A DNA stretch of 64,000 bases. Origin: Catellatospora sp. IY07-71 (GTDB lineage Bacteria > Actinomycetota > Actinomycetes > Mycobacteriales > Micromonosporaceae). This document shows positions 8,621-27,981 of the stretch, piece by piece; position 1 is the stretch's first letter, and the number at the start of each line of letters is the position of its first letter. The DNA lies in contig NZ_AP023360.1 of assembly GCF_018326265.1 (NCBI RefSeq), positions 3,587,501 to 3,651,500 on the forward strand, in the 5' to 3' direction. The notes under the pieces are model-generated. The model ran no database searches, was not told the origin of the DNA, and was given only the letters and a program-made list of their open reading frames with translations. A program made the translations under genes and the position numbers.

Positions 8621-8744
8621 ACCGCTGTTGCGATCGATCACGAACGCCGTAGCGCTGAGTAGTGGTAGCAGCTATGGCTCATGCAATGATCGGCTCCGCC
8701 CTATGTGCGCGGTCACGCGCCCGGAGCACCGGCACGGCCGCAGG

Positions 8745-8774
8745 GCAGCGCGGCTCGCGCCGGTGACTTAGCGT
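8745..8774 (+). promoter_or_regulatory. Promoter-like element, LamG gene 1 (GCAGCG-N18-TAGCGT)
   Basis: GCAGCG at 8745-8750 is separated by exactly 18 bases from TAGCGT at 8769-8774, followed by TCCGCTCCA. The same pair with identical spacing occurs before three other genes (12650, 16609, 20603). TAGCGT fits a TAnnnT -10 box; the -35 is non-standard. The translation start is 36 bases after the -10. Evidence is conservation across four copies; no mapped start site. Confidence 0.65.
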
Positions 8775-8804
8775 TCCGCTCCAAACATCGTTCTAGGAGT
8801 GGTC

Positions 8805-11800
8805 ATGTCACGGGGAGTTCCCAACGCGGCTCTGCGCAGAACCGCGCAGAGCCGCTGGGTATCGCTGTTCGCAGCATGTTTGATGGTGGCCGGCGCGGTG
8901 AGCGTGCCAGCGGCCGCCGCCGCAGCCGCGCCCGCACCGCAGCTGTCGCCGGAGCTGCGGGCCTCGCAGCTGGCGAAGGAGACCGGCAAGCCGGTCACGG
9001 TCGCCGAGGAGCTGACCGAGAACCGGCACGTGAGCGCGAATCCGGACGGCACGTTCACCGTCAAGATGCACGGCGGCCCGGCCCGCTTCCGCAACAGCCA
9101 GGGCGACTGGGTCGACGTCGACCTCAACCTGTACAAGCGCCCCGACGGCGCGATCGCCCCGAAGGCGCACCCGCGCGGCCTGGTGCTGGCCGGCGCGTCC
9201 GAGGAAGGTTCGCACGACCTCGCCCGGTTCGTCAGCGGCGGGCACGAGATCGCGGTCGGCTGGACGGGCGCGCTGCCCGAGCCGACCCTGTCGGGCACCA
9301 AGGCGACCTACGTCGACGTCCTGCCGGGCGTGGACCTGGTGGTCGAGGTGACGCGAGTCGGGTTCGAATACTTCGTCGTGGTCAACTCGCGCGCGGCCGC
9401 CGCCCGGGTGGCCAAGCTGGAGCTGCCGTGGCGCGCGGACGGCCTGACCCCCGTGCACGCCAAGGACGGCTCCGTCGACCTGCGTGACAGCGCGGGCAAG
9501 CGGATCGCGTGGATCCCGGTGCCCCGTATGTGGGACGCCCGCCGCTCGCCGGCCTCCGGTGACCCGTCCGTGGACGCGCCCGTGGCGGTGACCCTCGACC
9601 GCAGCGCGGCGGCCAAGGCGGCGTCCGCCACCGGCCAGCTGATGCGCGTCGTGCCCGATGCGAAGTTCCTCAGCGACCCGAAGACGGTCTACCCGGTGAC
9701 CATCGACCCGATGGTCACGGACTACACCGAGTTCGACACGTTCACGCAGAACTCCTACACCTCCGACACGTCGGGGATGACGGAGTTGAAGCTCGGGTAC
9801 GTCGTCGACCAGGGCAAGAGCTACTACGCGCGCTCGCACATGTCGTTCTACGGCATGGCGTCCTACCGCGGCGTCAACGTCCTGTCCGCGACCCTGTACC
9901 TGTACAACTTCCACTCCTACTCGTGCCGACCGAGCACCTGGCAGGCGTGGCGCACGGACTACGTCGGCAGCTCCGTCCGCTGGACCAACCCGCCCACCCG
10001 GCGGAACCTGAACGACTACACGGATCTGACGAAGGGCTACAGCTCGTCCTGCGGCGACGGCTGGGTCACCCAGAACGTCACCGAGACCTTCCAGACGACG
10101 GCCAACAGCACCAGCAACACGGCGAACATCGAGATCGCGGCGAAGAGCCTGTCGAGCCAGGACAGCTGGAAGAAGTTCCACTCCGCCGAGGGCACGAACG
10201 CGCCGTATGTCTCCCTGAACTACAACCGGCCGCCGACCGCGCCCACGAACCTGTTCGTCGGCAACAAGGCCTGCGCGACGGGCGCGTCCCGTCCGACCAT
10301 CGCCAGCACGGTCACCCCGATCCAGCTGAAGGCGAACGTCTCCGACCCCGACTACGTCAACGAGGCGGTCAACCTCAACGCCCGCTTCTACGTCGCCGAG
10401 CTCGGCACGCCGCTGCCGACCACCCCGACGGTGACCAGCCCCACGGTGACCCAGCCCAAGAACGGAGCCGCGCAGACCGCGACCGCGAACCTGCCGACCA
10501 CATTCGTGCTGCAGGAATTCCGCGTCTACTACTTCCAGGTCAGGGGCTGGGACCAGGAGCATGAGGGCGCCTGGTCGGCGATCTGCGAGTTCTACGTCGA
10601 CAACGGCAGCCCGGCCAAGGAACCCGTGGTCGAGGCCCTCGACACGGTCGGCGGGGTCAAGGTCTACCCCGAGAACGGCGTCGGCGGCGGGCCCGGTGTG
10701 TCCAGCCGGTTCCGTTTCTCGGCCAACGGCCAGGGCAACATCACCAAGTACCGCTACAAGTACTCGTTCAAGAACGTCGCCACCAACTGGGTCGAGGTCC
10801 CCGCGCCGACGCTGAGCGCCCCGGTCGAGGTCGTCCTCGCGCCCCCGTTCAACGAGGGTGAGGGCGGCACCACGCTGGCCGACCTGAACACCGGCGGGCA
10901 GTGGGCGATCACCGTCGAGATGGCCGACAACTCCGTCCCGCCGCGCTGGTCGACCAAGCAGAAGCTCTACCTGACCCAGGTCGGCTCGGCCCCCGCGGCC
11001 GTGGCCAACTGGAAGTTCAACGAGGCCGCCGGCGCGACCACGCTGACCGACCAGACCGGCGCGTTCAACGCCGCCGCGTTCAACCTGACCAAGTCGACCG
11101 ACAACCACGGCGACATGAACTCCTCCTGGGAGTTCAACGGCACCAGCTCGTACGCCGAGCCGGACTCCACCGTGCTCGACTCCTCGCGCAGCCACTCGAT
11201 CTCGGTGTGGGTGCGCCTCGGGGCCAAGGACGACAACCGCGGCATCGTCGCGAAGACCAGCGCCGTGTACGCGCCGCTGAACCTGCGCTACGAGTGCGGC
11301 CCGCTGGTGAACAGCGCCTGCTCCATCGACAAGTGGGCGCTGCGGCTCGCCTCCGACGAGTCCGGCTCGACGGTGTGGGTGGCCAAGTCCACCACCGCGC
11401 CGCAGATCGGCGTGTGGACGCACCTGGCCGGCGTCTTCGACGCCACGCTGGGCACCGCGTCGCTGTACGTCAACGGTGTGCTGCAGGAGACGCTCACCGG
11501 GGTCAAGCCGTTCAACGCCGTGAACAGCCCCCGCCTGCTGCTCGGCCGGGCCGGATCGAGCTGGTGGAAGGGCGGCCTCGACGACGTCGCGCTGTGGCAG
11601 CGGGCGCTGGACGCCCGTGAGGTCGGCGCGCTCGCCGTCGCCGAGCGGGCCAACTGGGATCTCGACATGTCCCTGATGGACGCGGGTGCCAAGCCGATCA
11701 CGAACCCGCCGTTCGACCTGCAGGGTTACGTCTGGGACGGCAGCAGCGACAGCCCGCTGGGTATCGGCACGCCGACGTCGGACGACGCACTGTGGTGGAC

Positions 11801-12395
11801 CGGCGTGGGCCACGCGACGACCTCCGGTGGCACCACCTACGAGGACCCGGGTGTCGCCCAGATCAACGTCGACGCGGGCATCGGGCAGATCCAGTCGTTC
11901 GGCACGGACCGGCCGGTGCTGCGCACCGACCAGTCGTACAGCGTCTCGCTCTGGGCACGCCTGGACGACCTGACCGCAGACCGGATCGTGTTCGCCCAGC
12001 GGGGTGTGCACGAGAGCGGCATCCAGATCGGGTTCCAGCAGAGCACCGGCAAGTGGCGGGCCACCGTGACCGACGAGGACCTGACCACCTCGCCGCAGAC
12101 CTCGGTGACCTCGAGCGCCTCGGCCGTGGCCGGCGCCTGGACGCACCTGGTCGCCGTGTTCGACGGGCACAGCAAGCAGCTGCGGCTCTACGTGGACAAC
12201 GGCACGCCGAACACCGCGGCCGTGTCCTACGTGCCGATGGCCGCGACCGGCGTGGTGAAGCTCGGCAACACCTACCAGCACGACGCCGTCGGCTCGTTCT
12301 GGGTCGGCGGCATCGACGAGGTTCGCGTCTTCCAGGGGGTCCTCACCGCCGACATGATCGGCCGCCTCAACCGGACCCCGGACGGCGTGCTGTGA
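8805..12395 (+). CDS. Large secreted DNRLRE/LamG-domain protein, copy 1
   Basis: This 1,196-residue exported protein opens with a signal peptide ending near AAAAAAAPAP. Next comes an N-terminal beta-rich module (NPDGTFTVKMHGGPARFRN) shared by all three copies. A DNRLRE-type domain lies at about 300-450 (DTFTQNSYTSD, LSATLYLYNFHSYSC, SVRWTNPP), followed by Ig/FN3-like segments at 480-720. Two LamG (concanavalin-like) domains start near 731 (AVANWKFNEAAGATTL, SWEFNGTSSYAEP) and 1,020. LamG domains usually bind glycans or proteins. ATG 8805 with TAGGAG just upstream is favoured over GTG 8799. It stands first of three paralogues before an RHS toxin and shares a promoter motif with them, so a role in surface presentation or delivery of that toxin is plausible but unproven. 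Confidence 0.85.
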   Translation: MSRGVPNAALRRTAQSRWVSLFAACLMVAGAVSVPAAAAAAAPAPQLSPELRASQLAKETGKPVTVAEELTENRHVSANPDGTFTVKMHGGPARFRNSQGDWVDVDLNLYKRPDGAIAPKAHPRGLVLAGASEEGSHDLARFVSGGHEIAVGWTGALPEPTLSGTKATYVDVLPGVDLVVEVTRVGFEYFVVVNSRAAAARVAKLELPWRADGLTPVHAKDGSVDLRDSAGKRIAWIPVPRMWDARRSPASGDPSVDAPVAVTLDRSAAAKAASATGQLMRVVPDAKFLSDPKTVYPVTIDPMVTDYTEFDTFTQNSYTSDTSGMTELKLGYVVDQGKSYYARSHMSFYGMASYRGVNVLSATLYLYNFHSYSCRPSTWQAWRTDYVGSSVRWTNPPTRRNLNDYTDLTKGYSSSCGDGWVTQNVTETFQTTANSTSNTANIEIAAKSLSSQDSWKKFHSAEGTNAPYVSLNYNRPPTAPTNLFVGNKACATGASRPTIASTVTPIQLKANVSDPDYVNEAVNLNARFYVAELGTPLPTTPTVTSPTVTQPKNGAAQTATANLPTTFVLQEFRVYYFQVRGWDQEHEGAWSAICEFYVDNGSPAKEPVVEALDTVGGVKVYPENGVGGGPGVSSRFRFSANGQGNITKYRYKYSFKNVATNWVEVPAPTLSAPVEVVLAPPFNEGEGGTTLADLNTGGQWAITVEMADNSVPPRWSTKQKLYLTQVGSAPAAVANWKFNEAAGATTLTDQTGAFNAAAFNLTKSTDNHGDMNSSWEFNGTSSYAEPDSTVLDSSRSHSISVWVRLGAKDDNRGIVAKTSAVYAPLNLRYECGPLVNSACSIDKWALRLASDESGSTVWVAKSTTAPQIGVWTHLAGVFDATLGTASLYVNGVLQETLTGVKPFNAVNSPRLLLGRAGSSWWKGGLDDVALWQRALDAREVGALAVAERANWDLDMSLMDAGAKPITNPPFDLQGYVWDGSSDSPLGIGTPTSDDALWWTGVGHATTSGGTTYEDPGVAQINVDAGIGQIQSFGTDRPVLRTDQSYSVSLWARLDDLTADRIVFAQRGVHESGIQIGFQQSTGKWRATVTDEDLTTSPQTSVTSSASAVAGAWTHLVAVFDGHSKQLRLYVDNGTPNTAAVSYVPMAATGVVKLGNTYQHDAVGSFWVGGIDEVRVFQGVLTADMIGRLNRTPDGVL

Positions 12396-12439
12396 CAGTG
12401 GGCTGACCGCTGACAAGCTGAGTCAGTAGTCCAAGTGAG

Positions 12440-12473
12440 AGGTGCCGGCGGTTTCGTGCTGCCGGCACCTTTC
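12440..12473 (+). terminator. Stem-loop terminator after LamG gene 1
   Basis: The arms AGGTGCCGGC (12440-12449) and GCCGGCACCT (12461-12470) pair perfectly around an 11-base loop and are followed by TTC. The rest of the 12396-12713 gap holds the next promoter-like element. Confidence 0.7.
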
Positions 12474-12649
12474 GCATGCCCGAGGTCGTGCTGAACGTAT
12501 GTGATCCAGCTCATATCAGAGAGGGTTTCGCTCGGCGAGCCCGCCGCCCCTCATCACGGAAAGTAATTGTTCCTAACCGCGCTGCTGAAGTAATCGGCAA
12601 ACTCCGATGGAAGGGGGTTCATTCTGCGTCGTCAGGCTACTGCGTGGGG

Positions 12650-12679
12650 ACAGCGCGATGCGTGCTTCTGATTTAGCGT
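12650..12679 (+). promoter_or_regulatory. Promoter-like element, LamG gene 2 (ACAGCG-N18-TAGCGT)
   Basis: ACAGCG at 12650-12655, 18-base spacer, TAGCGT at 12674-12679, then GCCGCTCCAGA. The start codon is 40 bases beyond the -10. About 60 bases further upstream a stretch around GTTCCTAACCGCG (from ~12568) is also shared with the third copy. Confidence 0.65.
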
Positions 12680-12713
12680 GCCGCTCCAGACTCTTCGTGG
12701 AGAGGTGGATTTC

Positions 12714-15700
12714 ATGTCGCGAAGCCGATCGGGCTTTGTGTTTTCTCGTGGCCGAAAGCGGCTGGTCGGTGCGGTGTCGGCCGGTCTGCTGTTGTCGGGT
12801 GTGCTGGGGGTGCCGGTGTCGGCGGCCGCGGCGGAGGTGGTGTTGTCGCCGGAGTCGCGGGCGTCGGAGCTGGCGAAGGCGCGTGGGGTGCCGGTGACGG
12901 TGCCGGAGTCGGTGACCGAGTCGCAGTCGGTGGTGGCGAATCCGGATGGTTCGTTCACGGCGGAGATCCACGGCGGTCCGACGCGGTTCCGCAACGCCAA
13001 GGGTGACTGGGTCGATGTCGATCTGAACCTGTACCGGCGGCCGGACGGTTCGATCGCGCCGAAGGCGCACCCGCGTGGGCTGGTGCTGGCCGGCAAGGGT
13101 ACTGGTTCGCGGGATCTGGCGCGGTTCGTGTCGAAGGGGCATGAGATCGCGGTGGGCTGGGAGGGTGTGCTGCCGGAGCCGTCGCTGTCGGGGACGAAGG
13201 CGACCTATGCCGACGCGATGCCGGGTGTGGACCTGGTGGTGGAGTCGACGCGGCTGGGCTTCGAGTACTTCCTCGTGGTGAAGAACCGGGGTGCCGCGTC
13301 GCGGGTGGCGCAGGTGCGGATGCCGTGGCGTGCGGAGGGGCTCACGGCTGAGCACACCGGCGAGGGTTCGGTGAAGCTGCGCGACAACGCGGGTTCCGTG
13401 GTGGCGTGGGCTCCGGCGGCGCAGATGTGGGACGCGCGGGTGTCGCCCGGATCCGGTGACCCGCTCGTGCAGGCCAAGGTCGGGGTGACGGTCGAGAAGC
13501 CGTCGGCCCGCCGTAGCGCGGTCGAGGGAGGCTCTGCCGGGGAGTCGATGCGGGTCGTGCCGGACGCGGCGTTCCTCAACGATCCGAAGACGGTGTATCC
13601 GGTGACGATCGACCCGATCGTCACCGAGAAGTCGGACTTCGACACCTTCACGCAGAACTCGTACAGCTCGGACCAGTCGGCGGCGACGCTGCTCAAGCTC
13701 GGTTACGTAGTCGATGGCGGTAGCTACTACGCGCGTTCGCACCTGCGGTTCGACAGCCTGAGCGGCTACGCGGGCGCGAAGGTCCTGTCCGCGACGCTGT
13801 ACCTGTACAACTGGCACTCGTTCTCGTGCCGGGCCAACAACTGGCAGGTGTGGCGGACCGCCAATGTGACCAGCTCGGTGCGGTGGACCAACCCGCCGAA
13901 GCGATACGTCCTCAACGGCACCTCCGATCTGACCAAGGGGTACAGCTCCGACTGCGGCGACGGCTGGGTGACCAACACGGTCACGGAGTCGTTCCAGACG
14001 GCGTTCAACGGCGGTTGGGCCTCCAACAGCCTGGAGATCGCGGCGAAGAGCACGGCGAGCCAGGACAGCTGGAAGAAGTTCGACTCGATGGAGGCGTCCA
14101 ACGACCCGTACGTGTCGCTGAACTACAACCGTCCTCCGGCTGCCCCGACGTCGCTGCTGATCGGTGGGAAGACGTGCGGCACGGGCGCGTCCCGTCCGAC
14201 CATCGCCAGCACCGTGACGCCGATCGAGCTGAAGGCCAACGTCTCCGACCCGGACTCCGCCGCCGAGGCGGTGAACCTCAACGCCCGGTTCTTCGTCGCC
14301 GAGCTCGGCAGCGCGCTGCCGGCCACGCCGACGGTGACCAGCCCGACGGTGACGCAACCCAAGAGCGGTGGCGCGCAGACCGCCACCGCCTCGCTACCTG
14401 CCGGGTTCGTGCTGCAGGAGTTCCACACCTACTACTTCCAGGTCAAGGGGTGGGATCAGGAGCATGAGGGGGCCTGGTCGGCGGTCTGCGAGTTCTACGT
14501 CGACAACGGCAGTCCCGCCGTCGCACCGGCGGTGACGGCGCTGGACACCCTGCCGGGCACCTCGACGAAGGTGTACCCGGAGAACGGCACGGGTGGCGGG
14601 CCGGGCGTGTCGAGCACGTTCCGGTTCGCGGCCAACGGCGAGACCGACATCAGCAAGTACCGGTACAAGTACTCCTACCGCGGCGTGAGCACCAACTGGG
14701 TCGAGGTCGTGCCCGCGTCCACGGGCGGCTCGGTGGACGTCGAACTGGCGCCGCCGTTCGACGAGGGCGACGGCTCGGGCACCCTGTCCTCGATCAACAT
14801 GGGCGGTCAGTGGGCGATCACCGTCGAGATGGCGGACTCGGCCAATCCGCCCCGCTGGTCGCAGAAGCAGAAGGTGTACACGACCATGGTGACCCCCGCC
14901 CCGGCGGCGGTGGCGCACTGGAAGATGAACGAGCCGTCGACCGCGACCCAGCTCGCCGACCAGACCGGAAACTACCCCGCCAACCTGAACACGATGACGA
15001 AATCGGCTGACGGGTTCGGCGACTTCGGCACCTCGTGGACCTTCAACGGCACGAACTCGTTCGCCGCACCGGCGACGTCGCCGCTCGACACGTCGCGCAG
15101 CTTCACGGTCTCGGTCTGGGCGAAGATGACCACCAAGAGCGGCGGCGGCGACCGCGTGCTGCTCTCCGAGACCGGTGGCGCCGACTACGCCTCGTTGTAC
15201 CTGAAGTACGAGTCGTCGGTAGACAGGTGGCAGTTCGAGATCCCGACGACGAGCGACTCGACCGCGCCCGGATTCGGGTTCGTGCGGGCGACCTCCACCA
15301 CGGCACCGAAGCTCGGCGCCTGGACCCACCTCGCGGCGTCCCTCGACGCACCCGCCGGGACGATGCGCCTGTACGTCAACGGCACCCTGGAGGCGACCAC
15401 GACCGGCCTCGCACCTTGGAACTACAACGGCCAGTTCCGGATCGGCAAGTCGGGCTCCACGTTCTGGCCCGGTGATCTGGACGAGGTCGCCGTCTGGCAG
15501 CGAGTCCTCGATCCGCGGGAGGTCGGTGCGCTGGCAGTGGCCGAGCGGGCGTCATGGGACCTCGACCAGTCGCTGACGGACGCGGTCGCCAAGCCGGTCA
15601 GCGCCGCGCCGTTCGACGTCCAGCTGTACGTCGAGCATGCTGCCCAGGGTCCCGGAACTCCCATGCCGGAAGACCTGACGTGGTGGGAGGCCGGGCACCC

Positions 15701-16319
15701 GTTCATGATCGGGCCGGACGAGGCCGAGGACGCCGGCGCGGCGCACCTCAACTGGAGCCCTGACCTGCCTCAGACGCTGTCGCTCGGCACGACCGGGCCG
15801 GTGCTGCGGACCGACCAGTCCTTCAGCGTGTCCGCCTGGGTCAAGCCGCACCGAGTCGACGGCCAGAACATGACGGCCGTGGGTCAGGACGGCACGGACG
15901 TGTCCGGGCTGTTCCTGGGCACGCGTCAAGCCACCGATGGGAACTGGTACTGGTCGCTGGCGATGAAGGACACGCCCCTCTACACCTCGACCACCCGCTA
16001 CCCCAGGTCCGCCGCGCCGTTGACGCCGGCCGACGTGGACAAGTGGGCTCACCTGGTCGGCACCTACGACGCCGGCTCGGGAATGATGAAGCTGTATCTC
16101 AACGGGGTGCTCCAGGGCTCCGTCAAGCGGGAGTCCGCCCCCGGCGTGCTGGTCGAGCCGTGGCAGGCGGATGGTGCGCTGTCGCTGGGCCGCGGCTTCT
16201 ACCAGGGTGCCGCGGCGGACTACTTCTCCGGCAGCATCGACGAGGTCCGCGTCTTCCAGGGCGTACTGACGCCGGACATGGTGCAGCGCCTGCACCGGGC
16301 CACGGACACGGAGCTCTGA
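12714..16319 (+). CDS. Large secreted DNRLRE/LamG-domain protein, copy 2
   Basis: This 1,201-residue paralogue has the same plan as the gene at 8805: signal peptide (RLVGAVSAGLLLSGVLGV), N-terminal module (NPDGSFTAEIHGGPTRFRN), DNRLRE-like domain (DTFTQNSYSSD, ATLYLYNWHSFSC), Ig/FN3-like middle, then two LamG domains near 735 (AVAHWKMNEPSTATQL) and 1,030. ATG 12714 is preceded by the strong site GGAGAGGTGG. From just before the -10 box through the signal peptide it is identical to copy 3, and the N-terminal ~250 residues differ little, whereas the C-terminal LamG domains differ freely. Length and domain order are conserved, so the repeats are functional duplicates rather than decaying copies. 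It lies in tandem between copies 1 and 3, each with its own promoter and terminator. Confidence 0.85.
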   Translation: MSRSRSGFVFSRGRKRLVGAVSAGLLLSGVLGVPVSAAAAEVVLSPESRASELAKARGVPVTVPESVTESQSVVANPDGSFTAEIHGGPTRFRNAKGDWVDVDLNLYRRPDGSIAPKAHPRGLVLAGKGTGSRDLARFVSKGHEIAVGWEGVLPEPSLSGTKATYADAMPGVDLVVESTRLGFEYFLVVKNRGAASRVAQVRMPWRAEGLTAEHTGEGSVKLRDNAGSVVAWAPAAQMWDARVSPGSGDPLVQAKVGVTVEKPSARRSAVEGGSAGESMRVVPDAAFLNDPKTVYPVTIDPIVTEKSDFDTFTQNSYSSDQSAATLLKLGYVVDGGSYYARSHLRFDSLSGYAGAKVLSATLYLYNWHSFSCRANNWQVWRTANVTSSVRWTNPPKRYVLNGTSDLTKGYSSDCGDGWVTNTVTESFQTAFNGGWASNSLEIAAKSTASQDSWKKFDSMEASNDPYVSLNYNRPPAAPTSLLIGGKTCGTGASRPTIASTVTPIELKANVSDPDSAAEAVNLNARFFVAELGSALPATPTVTSPTVTQPKSGGAQTATASLPAGFVLQEFHTYYFQVKGWDQEHEGAWSAVCEFYVDNGSPAVAPAVTALDTLPGTSTKVYPENGTGGGPGVSSTFRFAANGETDISKYRYKYSYRGVSTNWVEVVPASTGGSVDVELAPPFDEGDGSGTLSSINMGGQWAITVEMADSANPPRWSQKQKVYTTMVTPAPAAVAHWKMNEPSTATQLADQTGNYPANLNTMTKSADGFGDFGTSWTFNGTNSFAAPATSPLDTSRSFTVSVWAKMTTKSGGGDRVLLSETGGADYASLYLKYESSVDRWQFEIPTTSDSTAPGFGFVRATSTTAPKLGAWTHLAASLDAPAGTMRLYVNGTLEATTTGLAPWNYNGQFRIGKSGSTFWPGDLDEVAVWQRVLDPREVGALAVAERASWDLDQSLTDAVAKPVSAAPFDVQLYVEHAAQGPGTPMPEDLTWWEAGHPFMIGPDEAEDAGAAHLNWSPDLPQTLSLGTTGPVLRTDQSFSVSAWVKPHRVDGQNMTAVGQDGTDVSGLFLGTRQATDGNWYWSLAMKDTPLYTSTTRYPRSAAPLTPADVDKWAHLVGTYDAGSGMMKLYLNGVLQGSVKRESAPGVLVEPWQADGALSLGRGFYQGAAADYFSGSIDEVRVFQGVLTPDMVQRLHRATDTEL

Positions 16320-16364
16320 CAGGCTGATCCGGCGACCCGCTACAGCGGGGCGGCACCATGAAGA

Positions 16365-16409
16365 GACGACAGAGGGCTGGGCCGTGTTGCGGACCAGCCC
16401 TCTGTCGTC
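16365..16409 (+). terminator. Stem-loop terminator after LamG gene 2
   Basis: The 16-base arms 16365-16380 and 16394-16409 pair perfectly (core AGAGGGCTGG / CCAGCCCTCT) with a 13-base loop. The core is related to the terminator after copy 3, another sign of tandem duplication. The remaining 16410-16608 holds nothing coding that I can support. Confidence 0.8.
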
Positions 16410-16608
16410 GGATGCCCTCAGCCAGCAGCCGCATTCCCGTTGGCCGACGAGTACGAGTTCGCAGTGGTACATGTCACAGCGTCGCTTCGCCAGCACCTTG
16501 GCCTTCCGCCTCTGTCACGCAATGTAGTCGTTCCTAATCGCGCCGATGATGGAATTGGGACTGCTCGATGTAATATACCCTGGCGCTGGCAGTCCGTGCA
16601 GCTGAGGG

Positions 16609-16638
16609 ACAGCGGGATGGGCTCAACTGGTTTAGCGT
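16609..16638 (+). promoter_or_regulatory. Promoter-like element, LamG gene 3 (ACAGCG-N18-TAGCGT)
   Basis: ACAGCG at 16609-16614, 18-base spacer, TAGCGT at 16633-16638, then GCCGCTCCAGA; start codon 40 bases beyond. The spacer differs from copy 2 whereas everything from just before the -10 box downstream is identical to it, so the -35 and spacing look selected rather than merely inherited. Confidence 0.65.
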
Positions 16639-16672
16639 GCCGCTCCAGACTCTTCGTGGAGAGGTGGATTTC

Positions 16673-19600
16673 ATGTCGCGAAGCCGATCGGGCTTTGTGT
16701 TTTCTCGTGGCCGTGGCCGTGGCCGTGGCCGTGGGCGGCTGGTCGGTGCGGTGTCGGCCGGTCTGCTGTTGTTGGGTGTGCTGGGGGTGCCGGTGTCGGC
16801 GGCTGCGGCGGAGGTGGCTCTGTCGCCGGAGTCGCGGGCGTCGGAGCTGGCGAAGGCGCGTGGGGTGCCGGTGACGGTGCCGGAGTCGGTGACCGAGTCG
16901 CAGTCGGTGGTGGCGAACCCGGATGGTTCGTTCACGGCGGAGATCCATGGTGGTCCGACGCGGTTCCGCAACGGCCAAGGTGATTGGGTCGATGTCGATC
17001 TGAATCTGTACCGGCGTCCGGACGGTTCGATCGCGCCGAAGGCGCACCCGCGTGGGCTGGTGCTGGCCGGTAAAGGTACTGGTTCGCGGGATCTGGCGCG
17101 GTTCGTGTCGAAGGGGCATGAGATCGCGGTGGGCTGGGAGGGTGTGCTTCCTGAGCCGTCGCTGTCGGGCACGAAGGCGACCTATGCCGACGCGATGCCG
17201 GGTGTGGACCTGGTGGTGGAGTCGACGCGGCTGGGCTTCGAGTACTTCCTCGTGGTGAAGAACCGTGGTGCCGCGTCGCGGGTGGCGCAGGTGCGGATGC
17301 CGTGGCGTGCGGAGGGGCTCGCGGCAGAGCACACCGGCGAGGGCGCGGTGAAGCTGCGTGACAAGTCGAATGCGGTGGTCGCCTGGGCCCCGGCGGCGCA
17401 GATGTGGGACGCCCGGGTGTCGCCCCGATCGGGTGATCCGCTGGTGCAGGCGAAGGTCGGGGTGACGGTGGAGAAGCCGTCCGCACGTCGCAGTGCCGTC
17501 GAAGGAGCCACCGCCGGTGCGTCGATGCGGGTGGTGCCCGACGCGAAGTTCCTCGCCGATCCGAAGACGGTGTACCCGGTGACGATCGACCCGACGGTGA
17601 CGGAGTACGCGGACTTCGACACGTTCACGCAGAACTCGTACACCAGCGACCAGTCGGGCGCGAACCTGCTCAAGCTCGGTTACGTAGTTGAGGGGGGCAA
17701 GGCCTACTACGCCCGTTCGCACCTGCGGTTCAACAGCCTGAGCGGCTACGCGGGCGCCAACGTGCTGTCGGCGACGCTGTACCTGTACAACATCCACTCC
17801 TTCTCGTGCCGTCCCAACTACTGGCAGGTGTGGCGAACCGACCCGGTGACCAGTGCCGTCCGCTGGACGAGCCCTCCGAAACGGCAGAAGTTCAACGGCG
17901 AGTCCGACCTGACCAAGGGATATTCCGGCTGCGGTGCCGGGTGGGTGACCAACACGGTCACGGAGTCGTTCCAGACGGCGTTCAACAGCGGGTCGAGCTC
18001 CAACAGCCTGGAGATCGCGGCGAAGAGCACGGCGAGCCAGGACAGCTGGAAGAAGTTCGACTCCATGGAGACGGCCAACGACCCCTACGTGTCGCTGAAC
18101 TACAACCGCCCCCCGGCGGCGCCCACCGGCCTGACCATCGGCGGCAAGGCCTGCGCGACGGGCGCTTCCCGGCCGACGATCGCCAGCACCGTCACCCCGA
18201 TCCAGCTGACGGCCAACGTCTCCGACCCGGACTCCGCCGCCGAGGCGGTGAGCCTCAACGCCCGGTTCTTCGTCGCCGAGCTCGGCAGCGCGCTGCCGGC
18301 CACGCCGACGGTGACCAGCCCGACAGTCACCCAGCCCAAGAGCGGCGGCGCCCAGACCGCGACCGCCTCACTGCCGGCCGGGTTCGTGCTGCAGGAGTTC
18401 CACACCTACTACTTCCAGGTCAAGGGCTGGGACCAGGAAAACGAGGGCGCCTGGTCGGCGATCTGCGAGTTCTACGTCGACAACGGCAGCCCTGCCAAGG
18501 CTCCCCTGGTGACCGCGCTGGACACTCTGCCCGGCACCAGCACCAAGATCTACCCCGAGGACGGCACGGGCGGCGGACCGGGTGTGTCGAGCACGTTCCG
18601 CTTCACGGCCAACGGCGAGACCGACATCAGCAAGTACCGGTACAAGTACTCCTACCGCGGCGTGACCACCAACTGGGTGGAGGTCCCCACCCCGACGCCC
18701 GGCGCCTCGGTTGAGGTGGAGCTGGCCCCGCCGTTCGACGACGGCGACGGCTCGGACACCCTGGCCTCGCTCAACATGGGCGGTCAATGGGCCATCACCG
18801 TCGAGATGGCCGACTCGGCCAACCCGCCACGCTGGTCGACGAAGAGCAAGCTCTACCTCACGAACGTCGCGTCCGCGCCGGCCGCTCTCGCCCACTGGAA
18901 GATGAACGAGCCGGCCAACTACACCCAGCTCGCTGACCAGACCACCGACTTCAACGCCATCATGAACACGATGACGAAGTCGGCGGACGGCTTCGGCGAC
19001 TTCGGCACCTCGTGGACGTTCAACGGCACCACCTCGTACGCCGCCCCTGTCAACACGCCCATCGACACGACCCGGAGCTTCTCCGTCGCGGCGTGGGTGA
19101 AGCTGACCGACAAGAGCACCGACCGTGTGGTGGCGGCGAAGCTGAGCAGCGGCGCGAGCCCGTCGATGTTGATCAAATACCACATCGGCAACGACCGCTG
19201 GCAGCTCCTCATGCCGAACGGGAGCGACCCGAACGCATCCGGCTTCAGCTGGCAAGGGCTGTCGTCGGTCGCCGTGCCTTCGCTGGGCGCCTGGACCCAC
19301 CTGGTAGGCACCTTCGACGGGGCCACCGCTACGTCGCGGCTGTATGTCAATGGTCAGCTGGAGGCATCCCGGAGTGACGTCGTGGCGTTCAACCAGATCG
19401 GCGGGGAGTTCCGTATCGGTCGATCAAACGGCAACTCGTGGGCCGGTGACATCGACGAGGTCGCGGTGTGGCAGCGGACGCTCGACCCGCGCGAGATCGG
19501 GGCGCTGGCAGTCGCCGAGCGCGCTTCGTGGGACCTCGACCATTCCCTGATGGACACGGTCGGCAAGCCCGTCAGCACCATGCCGTTCGACCTGCGGGGT

Positions 19601-20287
19601 TTCGCCGGCGAAGCTCTGGACATCGGGGTCCCCCAGTCGGACGACCCTCTGTGGTGGGGGACGGGGCACCCGATCATGGTCGGTCAGGCCGAAGCCGAGG
19701 ACGGCGGTGCGGCGCTTCTCAACTGGGACCCTGCGGTGGAGGTGCCGCTGTCGCTTTTCGCGGACAGGCCGGTGCTGCGGACGGACCAGTCATTCAGCGT
19801 GTCGGTCTGGGTGAACCCGCACCGCATCGGCGGCGACAACATGTACGCCGTGGGCCAGGACGGCACGGACGTGTCCGGGCTGTACCTGGGCACCCGTGAC
19901 GTCGGTGGCAGCACCTACTGGGCATTCGCACTGAAGGACACGGACCTGGCCACATCGACCACCCGTTTCACGAAATCGGTGAACCCGTTGTCGTCGGGGG
20001 ACATCGGCACCTGGGACCACCTCGTGGGTACGTACGACGCCGGCTCCGGCCGGATCAAGCTGTACGTGAACGGAGTGCTGCAAGGCGCCACCATGCGGGA
20101 GTCCGCGCCGGGCGTGCGGGTCCAGCCCTGGCAGGCGGGCGGCGTGTTCTCGGTGGGCCGAGGCCTGTACGGAGGTGCCCAGACCAACCACTTCTCCGGC
20201 GGCATCGACGAGATCCGCGTGTTCCAGGGCGTGCTGACCCAGGACATGGTGGGGCGCCTGTACCGGACTTCGAACGGTGAGCTCTGA
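16673..20287 (+). CDS. Large secreted DNRLRE/LamG-domain protein, copy 3
   Basis: This 1,204-residue third paralogue has the same domain order: signal peptide, N-terminal module, DNRLRE-like domain (DTFTQNSYTSD, ATLYLYNIHSFSC), Ig/FN3-like middle and two LamG domains (ALAHWKMNEPANYTQL; RPVLRTDQSFSVSVWVNPHR). The n-region of the signal peptide carries an RG repeat (RGRGRGRGRGR) encoded by four to five CGTGGC units at 16706-16735, where copy 2 has only one. ATG 16673 follows GGAGAGGTGG. It is the last of the three and lies 534 bases ahead of the RHS toxin. Predicted role is as for copy 1: exported adhesive or glycan-binding protein, possibly part of the toxin apparatus. Function is inferred only from domains and context. 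Confidence 0.85.
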   Translation: MSRSRSGFVFSRGRGRGRGRGRLVGAVSAGLLLLGVLGVPVSAAAAEVALSPESRASELAKARGVPVTVPESVTESQSVVANPDGSFTAEIHGGPTRFRNGQGDWVDVDLNLYRRPDGSIAPKAHPRGLVLAGKGTGSRDLARFVSKGHEIAVGWEGVLPEPSLSGTKATYADAMPGVDLVVESTRLGFEYFLVVKNRGAASRVAQVRMPWRAEGLAAEHTGEGAVKLRDKSNAVVAWAPAAQMWDARVSPRSGDPLVQAKVGVTVEKPSARRSAVEGATAGASMRVVPDAKFLADPKTVYPVTIDPTVTEYADFDTFTQNSYTSDQSGANLLKLGYVVEGGKAYYARSHLRFNSLSGYAGANVLSATLYLYNIHSFSCRPNYWQVWRTDPVTSAVRWTSPPKRQKFNGESDLTKGYSGCGAGWVTNTVTESFQTAFNSGSSSNSLEIAAKSTASQDSWKKFDSMETANDPYVSLNYNRPPAAPTGLTIGGKACATGASRPTIASTVTPIQLTANVSDPDSAAEAVSLNARFFVAELGSALPATPTVTSPTVTQPKSGGAQTATASLPAGFVLQEFHTYYFQVKGWDQENEGAWSAICEFYVDNGSPAKAPLVTALDTLPGTSTKIYPEDGTGGGPGVSSTFRFTANGETDISKYRYKYSYRGVTTNWVEVPTPTPGASVEVELAPPFDDGDGSDTLASLNMGGQWAITVEMADSANPPRWSTKSKLYLTNVASAPAALAHWKMNEPANYTQLADQTTDFNAIMNTMTKSADGFGDFGTSWTFNGTTSYAAPVNTPIDTTRSFSVAAWVKLTDKSTDRVVAAKLSSGASPSMLIKYHIGNDRWQLLMPNGSDPNASGFSWQGLSSVAVPSLGAWTHLVGTFDGATATSRLYVNGQLEASRSDVVAFNQIGGEFRIGRSNGNSWAGDIDEVAVWQRTLDPREIGALAVAERASWDLDHSLMDTVGKPVSTMPFDLRGFAGEALDIGVPQSDDPLWWGTGHPIMVGQAEAEDGGAALLNWDPAVEVPLSLFADRPVLRTDQSFSVSVWVNPHRIGGDNMYAVGQDGTDVSGLYLGTRDVGGSTYWAFALKDTDLATSTTRFTKSVNPLSSGDIGTWDHLVGTYDAGSGRIKLYVNGVLQGATMRESAPGVRVQPWQAGGVFSVGRGLYGGAQTNHFSGGIDEIRVFQGVLTQDMVGRLYRTSNGEL

Positions 20288-20331
20288 CAAGCGGGCCTCG
20301 TGAGCTGCCACCTCCACGGGTGGCCGACTGA

Positions 20332-20370
20332 GACCGAGGGCTGGGCTGCGACGCGGCCCAGCCCTCGGTC
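20332..20370 (+). terminator. Stem-loop terminator after LamG gene 3
   Basis: GACCGAGGGCTGGGC (20332-20346) pairs perfectly with GCCCAGCCCTCGGTC (20356-20370) across a nine-base loop. It ends the LamG transcript before the RHS gene. Confidence 0.8.
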
Positions 20371-20534
20371 GGCAGGGACAGCGTTTCGTGCACAAAACAC
20401 CTCAATGAACTGATTGTCACTAGGTGTTCCACCTCGCTCGCTTCGTTGCCGACAGTGGCTCAGATCACATCCCCGATGCGGCGTCGGTGGCGGGCACGGC
20501 GTTCCATCACTGTGCGTCAGAGCGCCTGATGTAG

Positions 20535-20551
20535 GTCGATCAATGATCGAC
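20535..20551. promoter_or_regulatory. Perfect dyad upstream of the RHS promoter
   Basis: GTCGATCA-A-TGATCGAC is a perfect 8-base inverted repeat, 52 bases before the GCAGCG box of the RHS promoter. A further CGATCAATG follows at 20557-20566. It is a candidate operator; the binding protein is unknown. Confidence 0.4.
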
Positions 20552-20602
20552 AGGCGACGATCAATGGCGCATCGTGACGGCGATGGCACCCGAAGCGGCG
20601 GG

Positions 20603-20632
20603 GCAGCGAACGGCGGGCCGATGACTTAGCGT
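20603..20632 (+). promoter_or_regulatory. Promoter-like element, RHS toxin gene (GCAGCG-N18-TAGCGT)
   Basis: GCAGCG at 20603-20608, 18-base spacer, TAGCGT at 20627-20632, then GCCGCACCA. Unlike the LamG copies, the start codon is 195 bases away, giving a structured leader of about 180 bases. Confidence 0.65.
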
Positions 20633-20687
20633 GCCGCACCAAGCGTCCTTTGCCGAGCGAAGGTCCGCGTCTCACGGGGGTAAGACA

Positions 20688-20736
20688 CATGCCGGACGGC
20701 ATGGCGGCTGCGATGCCGCCTGCCGCCGTCGGCGGC
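20688..20736 (+). promoter_or_regulatory. Leader hairpins with alternative pairing before the RHS gene
   Basis: Three adjacent stems occur: CATGCC/GGCATG (20688-20703), GGCGGC/GCCGCC (20703-20720) and GCCGCC/GGCGGC (20722-20736). The GGCGGC and GCCGCC blocks can pair in more than one way, so mutually exclusive folds are possible, as in attenuators. This is a structural reading by eye; GC-rich DNA makes chance stems common. Confidence 0.35.
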
Positions 20737-20799
20737 GCTCGCCCTTTTACAGACCACCGGACCCGCCAGGTCACATCGGCGCGGAGCACCACGTCGTAA
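20689..20799 (+). other. Possible 36-codon leader ORF before the RHS gene
   Basis: ATG 20689 to TAA 20797 encodes MPDGMAAAMPPAAVGGARPF and a short polar tail. GGGGG lies ten bases upstream as a possible ribosome site. It overlaps the alternative hairpins and stops 22 bases before the RHS start, a layout suited to translation-coupled control. No homology is recognised, and it may be fortuitous. Confidence 0.3.
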
Positions 20800-20821
20800 T
20801 CGGGTCACGAGGAGTGTCTGA

Positions 20822-23800
20822 GTGAGTCACCATCAGTCGTTGACGAGGGTCATAGGCGGCCGGAGGCGATGGCGGCTATGCGCTGTCATGGGTCTGGCCG
20901 CGCTGACCGCGGTATCGGGATTGACCATCCCGGAACAGGCTTCCGCCGCACCATCCGGACAGCAGATCGCGCCGATGGCGAACGTGGCCGTCGGCCGTAG
21001 TCCCGCGTCGGCCCGGCAGAAGCCGGAGGTGCGCCAGCACCAGCCGAAGGCCGCGCGCTGGCCGAGTGCCCGCTCCGCGGTCGTGGAGCTGCCTCAGGGA
21101 CAGGGTCGGCTGACCGGCGTGCTCGCCCGGGTCGACGGGCCCTTGCCCAAGCCCGCGCAGCGGGTGCGCGCCGCAGGCACCCCCGTCTCGTTGACCGCGA
21201 CGACCGGCTCTCCGGACGCGGTACGCGCCGAGGTGCTGGATCGGGCGGCCGCCAAGGCGGCCGGCCGTGACGTGCTGGTGCGCGTGTCGCCGACCCGCGG
21301 TGCGACGGCCGGCTCGGTCGTGGTGTCGCTGGACATCTCGCAGTTCAAGTCGGCGTACGGCGCGGACTGGTCCGACCGCCTGCGGCTGACCGCGCTGTCG
21401 AATGATTGCGGCCCTGAGTCGTGCGACGCGCAGCCGCTGGCGACGTCGCGCAGCGGCGACACGCTGACCGCGACCGTGCCGATGTCCGCGGCGGGCACGA
21501 TGGTGGCGCTCTCGGCGGGATCGGAAGCGTCGTCGGGCTCGGGCGACTTCGGGGCGACCCCGCTGGCGGCTTCGGCCACCTGGTCGGCCGGCGGCAGTTC
21601 GGGCGGTTTCTCCTGGAACTACGGGCTGCGGGTGCCCCCGTCGCTGGGCGGACCATCGCCGAACGTGAGCCTGGCGTACTCCTCCCAGGCTGTCGATGGC
21701 CAGATGGCCGCGACCAACAACCAGCCGTCCTGGGCCGGCATCGGCTTCGATTGGGCACCCGGTTTCATCGAGCGCCGTTACATCGGCTGCAGCGAGGACA
21801 TGGAGGGCACGCCCGCCCCGAACAACACCCAGAAGACCAGCGACCTGTGCTGGCGCGGCAGCAACGCGACGCTGTCGCTGAACGGCCGGGCCACCGAGCT
21901 GTTCTACAACTCGACGGACAAGCTGTGGCACGGGCGTTCCGAGGACGGCTCGAAGGTCGAGCTGAAGTACGGCGCCTCGAACGGCGACGCCGGTCCCGCG
22001 CCCGGCACGTCGCCTTCGCCGGGTGACTCCGGTGAGCACTGGGTGGTCACCACCACCAACGGCACGAAGTACTACTTCGGCCTGAACCGCCTGCAGGGCT
22101 GGACCGCGGGCAAGCCGGAGACGAACTCGGTGCAGACCGTGCCCGTGTTCGGCAACCACCCCGCCGACCCCTGCTACTCCAGTTCCGGCTACACGTCCTC
22201 GGACTGCCTGCAGGCCTACCGCTGGAACCTGGACTACGTCGTGGACACCCACGGCAACACCATGTCGCTGTGGTGGGGCAAGGACGCCAACGAGTACGGC
22301 ATGAACCTGTCCACCACGGACCTGCACAGCTACACCCGCGACGCGTACCTCAAGCGCATCGACTACGGCACGCACCAGCGCACGCTGGTCAACAACGTCA
22401 AGACCGACACCGTCTTCACCGCCAAGCCGGTGCCGGCGCAGGTCAAGTTCGAGACCGGCGACCGGTGCCTGAGCAACTGCGCCACCCACGACGACAACTG
22501 GCCGGACACCCCGTGGGACCTGGAGTGCACGGCGTCCCCGTGTGACAACCACAGTCCGTCGTTCTGGTCCACCCGCCGGCTGCGTGAGGTCACGACCTGG
22601 GTCTGGGATGCGGCGAACAGCGCGCACAAGCTCGTCGACAAGTGGGGGCTGACGCACTCGTTCCCCGACCCGGGCGACGGCACCAAGGCCGGCATGTGGC
22701 TGGAGCACATCTCGCACAGCGGTCACGTGGGCGGCACTCCCAGCACGCCGGTCAGCGTGGCGCTGCCCGACATCGACTTCGACCCGGTGATGCTGCCCAA
22801 CCGCGTCGACACCGCGTTGAAGAACGGCCTGCGCCCGATGAACTGGGCACGCATGGCCGCGATCAACTCCGAGACCGGCGGCGTCATCGGCATCACGTAC
22901 GCGCCGAACGAGTGCGTGGCCGGGGCGCTGCCCACCGCGCACACCAACACCAAGCGGTGCTATCCGGTGCGCTGGACGCCGGAGGACCTGGGCGGCACGC
23001 CCGGCCAGGAGATCACGGACTGGTTCCACAAGTACGTCGTGGCGCAGGTGACCGAGTCCGACACCGTGGTCACCGGTGCCGCGGCCTCGCCGCCGAAGAT
23101 CACCCGCTACGAGTACGTCGGCGGGGCGGCCTGGCGCTACGCCGAGGACAGCGCCTTCACCAAGGACAAGTACCGGACCTGGAACCAGTTCCGCGGGTAC
23201 GGCACGGTGCGGACGCTGATCGGTGACGGCGCGGACCAGACCAGGACCGACGCGAAGTACTTCCGAGGGCTGCACGGCGACAAGACGTCCCCGTCGGGCG
23301 GCACGGACACCGTCACACTGACCGACAGTAAGGGGCTCATCGCCGCGGCGTACCCCACCGAGACCGTCTACGACTACGACGAGTTCGCCGGCCAGAAGCT
23401 GGAGAACATCGTCTACGACTCGCCCACCGGCAGCCCGATCTCCGGCACGGTCACCAAGCCGTGGCGCTCGGCCTCGACGGCGTCGCGCACGATCGACGGG
23501 CAGACCATCCACGCCCGGTTCGTCAACACCTCCGACACCTGGACGTGGGCCCAGCTCGACACCCAGCCGTCGTCGGACCGGGTGACGCGCAAGCTCACCA
23601 CGTACGACTCGCTGGGCATGGTGGTCTCCGACAGCAGCTTCGGTGATCTGGCCAAGACCGGCGACGAGCGCTGCACCGCGACGGACTACAAGCGCAACAC
23701 CGGCGCGCACCTGATGGTGCTGCCGTCGCGGGTCCGCATGTGGGCGCTGACGTGCGCGGACGCGCTCACGCCCAACCGCACGTTCACAAAGGACGAGATC

Positions 23801-26800
23801 GTCAGCGAGGTCCGGTCGTTCTACGACGACCACGCCTGGGACGAGATGCCGACCGTCGGCGAGGTGACCCGCGTCGACTCGCTGAAGGACTGGGTGAGCG
23901 GGGCGTTCGTGCCGCTGACCACCTCCCGGTCGTCCTACGACGACTACGGCCGCAAGACCGACACCTGGGACGTCGACAACCAGCACGTGACGGTGGCGTA
24001 CACGCCGGCCGCCGACGGCCCGGTGACGTCCATGTCCGAGACGGACGCGCTGGGCACGGCGACCAGCACGCTCGAGCCGGCGTGGGGTGCTCCCACCCTC
24101 GAGGTCGACGTCAACGGCCGCCGCACCGAGGTGACCTACGACCCGCTGGGCCGGACCGAGAAGGTCTGGCGACCGGGCCGGTCCAAGGCCCTGTATGGCT
24201 CGACCCCGAGCGCCTGGTACCTCTACAGCATCTCCAAGACCGCACCGTCGGTGGTGGAGACCAGGACGCTCAGCCCCAACGGCACCATGATCAGCGCGTT
24301 CATCCACTACGACGGCCTGATGCGGGAACGGCAGACGCAGGCCGTCAAGGCCAACGGGACGGCCGGTGCCATGGTCACCGACGTCTTCTTCGACACCGCT
24401 GGCCGGACCTGGCGCACCTTCGGTCCGTACCCGGTGGCGTCGGCGCCGTCCGGCACGTTCTCGCCGCACCCGGAGTCGGACTTCGAGAACCTGGAGATCT
24501 GGTCCAAGACCCAGTACGACAGCGCGGGCCGCAAGACGGAGGAGATCCGCTACTCCAAGCTCGCCGAGCAGTGGCGCACCTCCACGCGCTACCCGTCCGC
24601 TGACCGGATCGAGGTCACTCCGCCCACGGGCGGCACGGCCGTCACCACCGTCCGGGACGTGCAGGACCGGGTGACGAAGATCCGCCAGCACCACGGCCCC
24701 ACCCCGGCGTCGACCTACGACGAGACGGCCTACGACTACGACCTCAAGGGCAACCTCAAGCGGGTCACCAACTCGCTGGGCACCAAGTGGGAGTACGAGT
24801 ACGACATCCTCGCCCGCCAGATCGAGGCGCGTGACCCGGACAAGGGCACCACGACCACGACCTACGACGATGCGGGACGGGTCACCAGCGTCACCGACAG
24901 CCGCGTACCTGCGGTGACCGTGCGCACCACCTACGACACGCTGGGCCGTAAGACGGGCCTGTACCAGGGCACCGTGACGGCCGCCAACCGGCTGGCGAAG
25001 TGGGAGTACGACGGGCTGGCCACCGCCAAGGGCATGCTCACCTCGTCCACCCGTTACGTCGGCGGCGAGTCCGGTGCGGCGTACACCAACACCATCACCG
25101 CCCTGTCCTCGTTCGGCACCCCCTCGCAGCGGAAGATCTCGATCCCCGCGACCGAGGTCGGGCTTGCCGGTGATTACCTCTACGACTACGGATACAAGGC
25201 CAACGGCGCGCCGGCGAGCGTCCGCCTGCCCGCGATCGGCTCGGCGAGCGGCTACAACCTCGGTTGGGAGACGCAGACCACGACCTACACCGCCAACGGC
25301 GCTCCGCAGAAGCTCAGCGTCGGGGCGACGGACTGGCTGGTCACCGACACGACCTACACCGAGCACGGCGAGCTCGGCGTGATCACGTTGCGTGACCTGA
25401 CGACCAATCCACAGGTGCAGATCGGCCACTACTTCGACGCCGAGACCAGGCGCTTGGACCGGGTGTGGACCACCCGGGACACGGCACCGACGTCGGTGTC
25501 CGACGTCAGCCTCGACTACGACGACGCGGGCACCGTCACCCAGGTGGCGGAGGCCTCGGCGGTGGCGGGCGTGGAGACGCAGTGCTTCTCGCACGACTAC
25601 CTGCGCCGGCTGAAGGAGGCCTGGACGCTGGCGTCCGGGAACTGCGGGGCCGTCCCGCAGGCCTTCTCCGCCGTCGGCGGCGTGGAGAAGTACTGGCTGA
25701 GCTGGGAGATCGACGGCGGCGGCAACCGCACCAAGCAGGTCAAGCACACTGCGGGCGGCGACGTCACCACGAAGTACGTCTACCCGGCGCCGACCGCCGC
25801 GCAGCCGCACACCCTGCTGCGTACCACCGATGCGGCAAATGTCACCACCGCCAACTACAGCTACGACGGCACGGGCAACACCCGATGCCGACCGGCTGGC
25901 ACGGCGCTGAACACCTGCCCGAGCGGCAGCGGCAGCCAGGTCGTGACCTGGGACGCCGAGGGACGGGCCGCGTCGTCAGCCGACACCACCGGTACCACGA
26001 GCTACATCTACGACGCCGACGGTGCCCGGCTGATCCGCAAGGACCCGCAGGGCAAGACGCTCTACCTGCCCGGTCAGGAGCTCCGGGTCGACACCGCCGG
26101 CAGCCTGGTGATCTCGTGTACCCGGTACTACTCCTGGGCCGGCATGAACATCGCCAGCCGCGCCAGCAGCCTGTCGGGCAACGCGGTGCTGACCTGGATG
26201 GTGGCCGACCGGCAGAACAGCGCCAACATCACGATCCAGGCGGCCGGCACCCAGGCGGTGGCGGTCAAGCGGCAGGACCCGTACGGCAACCAGCGCGGCT
26301 CGACGGTCGGCAGCTGGCTGCCCACCATCGACAAGGGCTTCGTCGGCGGGACCAACGACAACACCGGCCTGGTGCACATCGGCGCACGCGAGTACGACGC
26401 CAAGCTCGGGCGGTTCGTCAGCGTCGACCCGGTGATGGACCTGCTCGACCCGCAGCAGTGGAACGCCTACTCCTACAGCAACAACAGCCCTGTCACGTTC
26501 AGCGACCCGACCGGCCTGATCATGGAGGAGTACGCCAACGCGTCTCACCCGCCGCCGGGTCCGTGGGGCGACAAGATCGACGACCGCAAGTGGAGCCCGT
26601 GCCCGTGGGGCATGAGCCCGCGCGAGTGCGAGCGCCGCTACGAGAACAACACCGCGACCTGGGAGGAGAAGAAGCCCACCTTCAACCCGGACGCGATCGA
26701 GATGCTCAAGTTCGGGTTCAGCCTGTTCCCCGGCGTCGGCGACGCGATGGACGTCATCGAATGCGCGCAGGACCCAAGCCTGTTGTGTGTCGGGACCACC

Positions 26801-27676: not shown

Positions 27677-27981
27677 CCGCTGGCGAGGCCGCGGATCGAC
27701 CTAGGTCGACGGTTACCGTCGAAATCCAGACCTACGATCCAGCGCTCGGCGTGGGGACCTGGTGGGACGACGATACGGTGCTGCGCGCGGAGGTATGGGA
27801 ATCACCTGAGCAGACCGTGGTCATCTCGGGAAACCCGGCGGGACTGGTCTCCCTCGCCAGGCATCTCTTGAGCCTGGCGCAGGAGGCTGTTCCTGACGGC
27901 CGTCATTTCGACTTCGACACCTATTGCGGCTGGCTCGAAGAAGGTTCAGCGGCTATTCGCATCGAGGTCGAAAAGCGATAG
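27661..27981 (+). CDS. Imm32-like immunity protein for the RHS toxin
   Basis: This 106-residue acidic cytosolic protein has the segment VVISGNPAGLVSLARHLLSL, followed by AQEAVPDGRHFDFD and a final S-A-A-I-R-I-E-V. This matches the Imm32 pattern (a G-N-x-x-G-L-x-x-L-A helix, then P-x-G-x-H-x-x-x-D). Imm32 proteins protect cells against their own polymorphic toxins by direct binding. The gene starts inside the last 16 bases of the RHS gene (ATG 27661, with GAGGAG ten bases before), the classic toxin/immunity overlap that links their translation. A strong bidirectional stem-loop follows at 28009. Immunity to the tail of this RHS protein is inferred from position; the fold assignment is from motif recall. 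Confidence 0.75.
   Translation: MAPAVTAGEAADRPRSTVTVEIQTYDPALGVGTWWDDDTVLRAEVWESPEQTVVISGNPAGLVSLARHLLSLAQEAVPDGRHFDFDTYCGWLEEGSAAIRIEVEKR

Follow-up and report, generated by a model that had tools for sequence, protein, structure and literature searches.

Within 64,000 nucleotides of the Catellatospora sp. IY07-71 chromosome (contig NZ_AP023360.1, positions 3,587,501 to 3,651,500; hereafter the window), three genes for LamG surface proteins and one gene for an RHS polymorphic toxin are each preceded by the same promoter-like site, which recurs elsewhere in the genome before members of the same two families. We lean, with moderate confidence, to the view that the site is a promoter/operator unit that would unite RHS toxins, LamG surface proteins and an orphan immunity-like gene into one regulon, through an activator working over a -10 element of the principal sigma factor. 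As judged from the DNA, a regulon defined in cis is well supported, and the members of the set are probably switched on together.

Four Sites in the Window

All four sites lie on the forward strand. RCAGCG starts at 8745, 12650, 16609 and 20603 and TAGCGT at 8769, 12674, 16633 and 20627, with a gap of exactly 18 bases in every case; the blocks that follow are, in order, TCCGCTCCA, GCCGCTCCA, GCCGCTCCA and GCCGCACCA. The first-pass annotation had described these four copies with their downstream block, and they prove exact. TAGCGT occurs nowhere else on either strand of the window, and in 200 dinucleotide-preserving shuffles of it the pattern appears 0.01 times on average and at most once, compared with the four observed.

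An alignment of ten sites from this genome (the orphan locus L027 and a degenerate copy, L041, are excluded) shows that the conserved site is wider than first noted and can be written GGRCAGCG-N13-T-N4-TAGCGT-KCCGCTCC. The T at spacer position 14 is present in all ten, with G as the next base in eight; it falls at position -17 if TAGCGT spans -12 to -7. Site 1 (8743..8782) is composed of GGGCAGCG (8743-8750), T 8764, TAGCGT (8769-8774) and TCCGCTCC (8775-8782), and stands 5' of LamG gene 1 (8805..12395, + strand; 1196 amino acids, with a DNRLRE domain and two Laminin_G_3 stretches). Site 2 (12648..12687; GGACAGCG at 12648-12655, T 12669, TAGCGT 12674-12679, GCCGCTCC) stands 5' of LamG gene 2 (12714..16319, +; 1201 amino acids, two Laminin_G_3 stretches), and site 3 (16607..16646; GGACAGCG at 16607-16614, T 16628, TAGCGT 16633-16638, GCCGCTCC) 5' of LamG gene 3 (16673..20287, +; 1204 amino acids, a DNRLRE domain and two Laminin_G_3 stretches). 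Of four LamG-family proteins scanned for DNRLRE, the products of window genes 1 and 3 match it and those of L026 and L152 do not.

Site 4 (20601..20640; GGGCAGCG at 20601-20608, T 20622, TAGCGT 20627-20632, GCCGCACC) is followed by a 189-nucleotide leader (20633..20821, +) and then by the RHS gene (20822..27676, +; 2284 amino acids), whose product carries RHS/YD repeats, the Rhs-associated core and a pretoxin HINT domain. Its matches to PF05593, PF07591 (pretoxin HINT) and TIGR03696 place it among the RHS/WapA-type polymorphic toxins; a scan of the protein for DNRLRE gave no match, so it is not a WapA in the narrow sense. An open reading frame (ORF) of 106 amino acids (27661..27981, +) overlaps the end of the RHS gene in the position of an immunity gene, a function suggested by position alone. 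Scans of the window against Rfam (gathering threshold) and for tRNA genes gave no match.

Distribution of the Site in the Genome

As a check on its idea of one regulon of the three LamG genes and the RHS toxin, the first-pass annotation had proposed that the two boxes be scanned for across the genome. In the 8.6-Mb genome, a single contig, CAGCG-N18-TAGCGT has nine exact matches, compared with three for the reversed pattern. Every one of the nine lies 5' of a long ORF that starts within about 240 nucleotides on the same strand and that is of LamG or RHS type, as determined by family searches and coordinates; by eye, the N-termini of these ORFs resemble signal peptides. When the gap is allowed to vary, CAGCG-N(8..30)-TAGCGT has 30 matches, nine at gap 18 and 21 scattered across the 22 remaining gap values; for the reversed pattern, in which the stop-like TAG is missing, gaps from 8 to 30 give 81 in total. 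The 22-base pattern GGRCAGCG-N18-TAGCGTKCCGCTCC, with up to three mismatches, has 15 matches, 11 of them in the set treated here, the orphan locus included, and its reversed control has none. Of the other four, the one at 8011557 heads an unrelated ORF (also found in the genus genome G002), and those at 5397634, 6650959 and 7752478 fell outside the analysis.

The same result is reached from the side of the gene families. Laminin_G_3 has 21 matches in the genome, and ten of these fall in five ORFs of about 1200-1500 amino acids, the double-LamG genes, all five of which have the site; the remaining 11 lie in other ORFs, away from sites. RHS repeats are found by family search in six long ORFs, and five of them have the site with up to three mismatches. 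At the sixth RHS gene (C1:4538 kb) the copy is degenerate, differing at five of 22 positions and keeping the T at spacer position 14. A protein-guided scan of a collection of genome contigs found no relative. Genome-wide, the site is thus limited to one functional gene class, as expected of a regulon defined in cis. The proposed regulon stands in this sense, and its set is wider than the four window genes, for it takes in scattered loci and an orphan immunity-like gene.

The orphan is at 6592 kb (L027; C1:6580000-6596000, minus strand from about 12068), where behind a site with TATCGT comes a stretch that matches the 26 C-terminal residues of an RHS protein (E-value 1e-4) and then an ORF of 116 amino acids. 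The latter shares 44.8% identity (E-value 1.6e-25) with the ORF that follows the RHS gene of the 6712-kb locus. A decayed toxin gene was our first idea for this locus, and it was dropped in view of the RHS tail and the homology of the 116-residue ORF. We read L027 as an orphan immunity gene that has retained the toxin promoter, its immunity role being suggested by its position.

Several smaller observations concern the RHS loci. A small ORF of 114-140 amino acids follows the RHS gene at each of L025, L028, L030 and L031, as expected for immunity genes. At L031 (minus strand, downstream of 12843) the RHS gene has a promoter and leader like those of LamG gene 1, with a 43-codon ORF where the LamG start would be; the two families have probably exchanged a promoter here. 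Short ORFs precede the RHS start in several leaders, with 36 codons in the window (20689-20799) and 26 and 43 codons in the leaders of L028 and L031. The stop codon of the L028 short ORF overlaps the RHS ATG, an arrangement that could couple translation.

Promoter Class and the Nature of the Regulator

The -10 box of the site has a much wider use. TAGCGT-N6/7-ATG has 517 matches in 11 genomes of the genus, compared with 214 for the reversed control. Thirty of these loci were sampled; one is cut by a contig end, and of the 29 that could be read 25 mark the beginning of a coding ORF, with some orthologues among these ORFs. No -35 box is visible in 58 non-redundant loci of this kind, where CAGCG stands at spacer 18 in none and at spacer 19 in one. 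In 78 upstream regions of RHS and LamG genes from nine other genus genomes (some regions overlap), TAGCGT occurs ten times forward and once in reverse, a modest excess over mononucleotide shuffles (mean 4.6, maximum 11 in 300). We considered whether TAGCGT itself is specific to LamG and RHS genes and rejected the idea in view of its generic use before many leaderless genes. Given this use without a -35 consensus, TAGCGT is therefore best taken as an ordinary -10, and the box at the -35 position, the T and the start-proximal block would carry the specificity.

Excerpts of two papers (PMC4895711, PMC6742748) describe Streptomyces promoters with a TANNNT -10 and a TGAC-type -35, separated in S. 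lividans mostly by 18-19 bases. TANNNT is found at all 12 sites of this genome (TAGCGT, which was part of the search pattern, at nine; TAGCCT, TATCGT or TACCGT at the rest), whereas 18-19 bases upstream, where TGAC or NTGACC would be expected, sits the AGCG of GGRCAGCG. The register of the sites therefore fits this consensus and the -35 does not. The sites also resemble HrdB-type promoters in the spacing of 18 and in how far downstream the start codon or leader lies (the start codon is 8 nucleotides after TAGCGT at L103/L190), and they differ in the GGRCAGCG box, the T at -17, the KCCGCTCC block and the restriction to one gene class in this genome.

In the mechanism that we prefer, the principal (HrdB-type) sigma factor would read TAGCGT as the -10, and a putative activator would bind at the -35 position and recruit RNA polymerase, which would need such help because GGRCAGCG stands there in place of a TGAC-type box. 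The same activator may also use the T at -17 and the start-proximal CCGCTCC block, and under the activating condition all members would be transcribed together.

It is rather unlikely, in our judgment, that a dedicated alternative sigma factor reads both boxes and that its -10 merely resembles the principal one. The fixed 18-base spacing and the retention of the internal -10 bases (TAGCGT in nine of 12, TANNNT in all) are what a sigma factor would impose, but many unrelated leaderless genes use this TAGCGT without having a -35 in common, and the start-proximal block lies beyond the usual sigma contacts. Promoters of extracytoplasmic function (ECF) sigma factors have an AAC-type -35, a spacer of 16-17 bases and a CGTC-type -10, a layout that the site sequences do not follow. 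With ECF regulons the set shares scattered genes under a two-box promoter, and it differs from them in the boxes, the spacing and the generic use of the -10. The first-pass annotation had offered a non-housekeeping sigma factor or an activator; the sigma half of that proposal is weakened and the activator is favored, because TAGCGT is generic and comes with no shared -35.

An improbable alternative dispenses with any special regulator: the genes would have spread by duplication, promoter included, and nothing beyond core promoter strength would have been retained. Both families are indeed more alike within the species than to their relatives. The N-termini of the queries are 61-73% (RHS) and 65-91% (LamG) identical to other copies in this species, whereas in relatives RHS reaches at most 48% over the full query (or 62% over a part) and LamG at most 46%. 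One RHS locus, as noted above, has a LamG-type leader, and since the leaders of LamG genes 2 and 3 are identical, part of the similarity is recent duplication, a point that counts against a purely regulatory explanation. However, over the 45 pairs of aligned sites the mean identity is 0.89 for the GGRCAGCG box, 0.97 for TAGCGT and 0.85 for the last block (the discriminator), compared with 0.37 for the spacer, 0.29 for the 60 bases upstream and 0.38 for the leader. The values are nearly the same in the 25 pairs that set a LamG gene against an RHS gene, whose proteins have no similarity (four proteins compared). The box values are partly due to selection of the sites, as the boxes were search terms; the T at -17 lay outside the search pattern. 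Generic TAGCGT promoters, moreover, keep no -35 box. Given boxes that are 89-97% identical amid spacers and flanks close to random, we take this as selection on short blocks rather than plain duplication, as had been proposed at the outset.

Less probable still is a repressor operator (AGCG-N3-CGCT over the -10 and the start, with an extra CAGCG half-site at -35) that would shut off a promoter on by default: the repeat is intact in eight of the ten aligned sites and YAGCG is common to both boxes, 23 bases apart, but window site 4 (CGCA) and L030 (TAGCCT) have only a broken form of it, the G069 site described below and L141 in genome G008 lack it, and the T at -17 is left unexplained.

The Site in Related Genomes

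Both gene families are common in the genus. The LamG N-terminus is matched at an E-value of 0.001 or better in all 11 genus genomes (in G007 by a short, weak match only), and RHS relatives are present in nine of the 11. Besides the identical leaders of genes 2 and 3, several observations weigh against a dedicated activator and its regulon. The site is missing from most of the 78 regions read upstream of relatives' RHS and LamG genes, and with up to two mismatches the 10 other genus genomes have matches only in G006, before a weapon-type gene, and in G002, before an unrelated gene; the strong pattern is nearly confined to one species. Exact GGRCAGCG-N18-TAGCGT occurs 99 times in 354 genomes of the family by hand count, eight times here and 91 times in the other 353 (0.26 per genome). 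The density in this genome speaks for the regulon; on the other side, the 91 outside matches compare with about 40 for a reversed control that has none here (also hand counts). Of 49 outside sites inspected by script and eye, L190 and L208 precede weapon-type genes and L233 a gene that looks LamG-like by eye; the rest, for which no family search was made, lie 5' of diverse ORFs or in possible coding sequence. Finally, simple class II activators do not usually come with a conserved block between the -10 and the start.

GGRCAGCG-N18-TAGCGT was accordingly rejected as a family-wide marker of weapon genes. Outside matches stand mostly before genes not recognized as weapon genes and number 91 compared with about 40, and GGRCAGCG at N18 alone is therefore no such marker. 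A start codon lies 6-8 nucleotides after TAGCGT at 18 of the 49 inspected sites, L190 included. The same pattern recurs across species before apparently orthologous unrelated genes (L198/L201, L209/L214 and L219/L220), which by eye are phosphoesterase-like, a membrane protein and kinase-like. In the apparent orthologues L209/L214 and L261, also judged by eye, TAGCGT is retained and the upstream box is not.

A few relatives do carry the site before members of the set. In G006 it occurs twice, with spacers of 18 and 19, 5' of an FG-GAP gene and of its 76% identical paralogue, and each of these FG-GAP-type genes is followed by a LamG-family gene and an RHS gene. In a collection of named genomes, which may omit the window's own record, the sole match to the exact pattern is on a contig of Catellatospora coxensis, where the site is identical to that of G006, spacer included. 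In G008 the site heads a LamG-family gene that has an RHS gene behind it, and a weaker copy with a spacer of 19 heads another RHS gene. In G069, from another genus of the family, the site stands 5' of a gene whose product is homologous over its full length to the window LamG proteins (37-39% identity across about 1200 residues), and an RHS gene comes next; here a GTG start lies 8 nucleotides after TAGCGT, as a -10 predicts. Of 46 RHS genes in other genomes, 13 are preceded within 7.5 kb, on the same strand, by a LamG-family gene. The LamG-RHS partnership is therefore seen in part of the cases, and in our genome scattered members would be tied by promoter, not by operon.

A home-made expectation-maximization motif search of the regions upstream of other genus members' RHS and LamG genes gave no convincing promoter motif, and its top motifs resemble coding sequence of the upstream gene. 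By eye, an AGGCCTT box is seen 5' of RHS and LamG genes 21-22 bases before TAGCGT in G005 (L131, L133, L134) and before TAGCTA or TAGCTG in G010 (L057, L069). These five regions suggest that regulator specificity changes between species. It is tempting to go further, and we do so tentatively, since we hold the following picture to be possible but doubtful: a putative activator would command a weapons regulon of toxins, surface partners encoded apart from them and an immunity gene left with the toxin promoter but no toxin, whose LamG-RHS unit is clustered in some relatives and scattered here, held together by the three-part promoter element, while other species of the genus would use -10s of TAGCGT or TAGCT type with other -35 boxes such as AGGCCTT, as if the specificity of the regulator had been swapped.

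Comparison with Known Systems

The control of many polymorphic-toxin genes by one regulator is an already known kind of system, to which the present case would add. In Bacillus subtilis, according to excerpts of PMC8321402, DegS-DegU activates four operons for LXG toxins and has a negative effect on wapAI, an operon for an RHS toxin, which thus responds in the opposite sense. As described there, one transcriptional system likewise acts on several polymorphic toxin-antitoxin operons; the present set differs in phylum and DNA element, combines RHS-type toxins with separate LamG-family genes, and is defined by its DNA sequence. The Streptococcus suis WapA, in the portion of PMC12704120 that describes it, has DNRLRE, LysM, RHS and toxin parts in one protein. 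It shares with the Catellatospora proteins the DNRLRE surface domain, RHS repeats with the Rhs-associated core, a C-terminal toxin region and Sec-type N-termini (here by eye), whereas in our genome the DNRLRE/LamG proteins and the RHS toxins are separate genes with a common promoter element and would act as partners. A review of polymorphic toxins, again in excerpt, describes laminin-G domains as usually N-terminal and likely wall anchors (PMC3482391).

The titles and abstract openings of the open-licence papers surveyed name no promoter motif for actinobacterial RHS genes, and the regulation of RHS polymorphic toxins in actinomycetes appears to have been little described. The 12-gene set defined by the site offers a direct handle for finding the regulator and the timing of contact-weapon deployment, and could link toxins to distant surface-partner and immunity genes on the chromosome.

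Neighboring Genes in the Window

Two TnpB/IS605 OrfB genes (3436-4710 and 31997-33316, both +) share 86% identity at the protein level and, over 1391 bases, 89% at the DNA level. In the same orientation, they bracket genes for a peptidase M6, the three LamG proteins, the RHS protein and a xylanase/deacetylase. A sensor histidine kinase and a LuxR-type response regulator form a pair at 34228-36017 (+), 6.5 kb downstream of the RHS gene, to which neighborhood is their only link.

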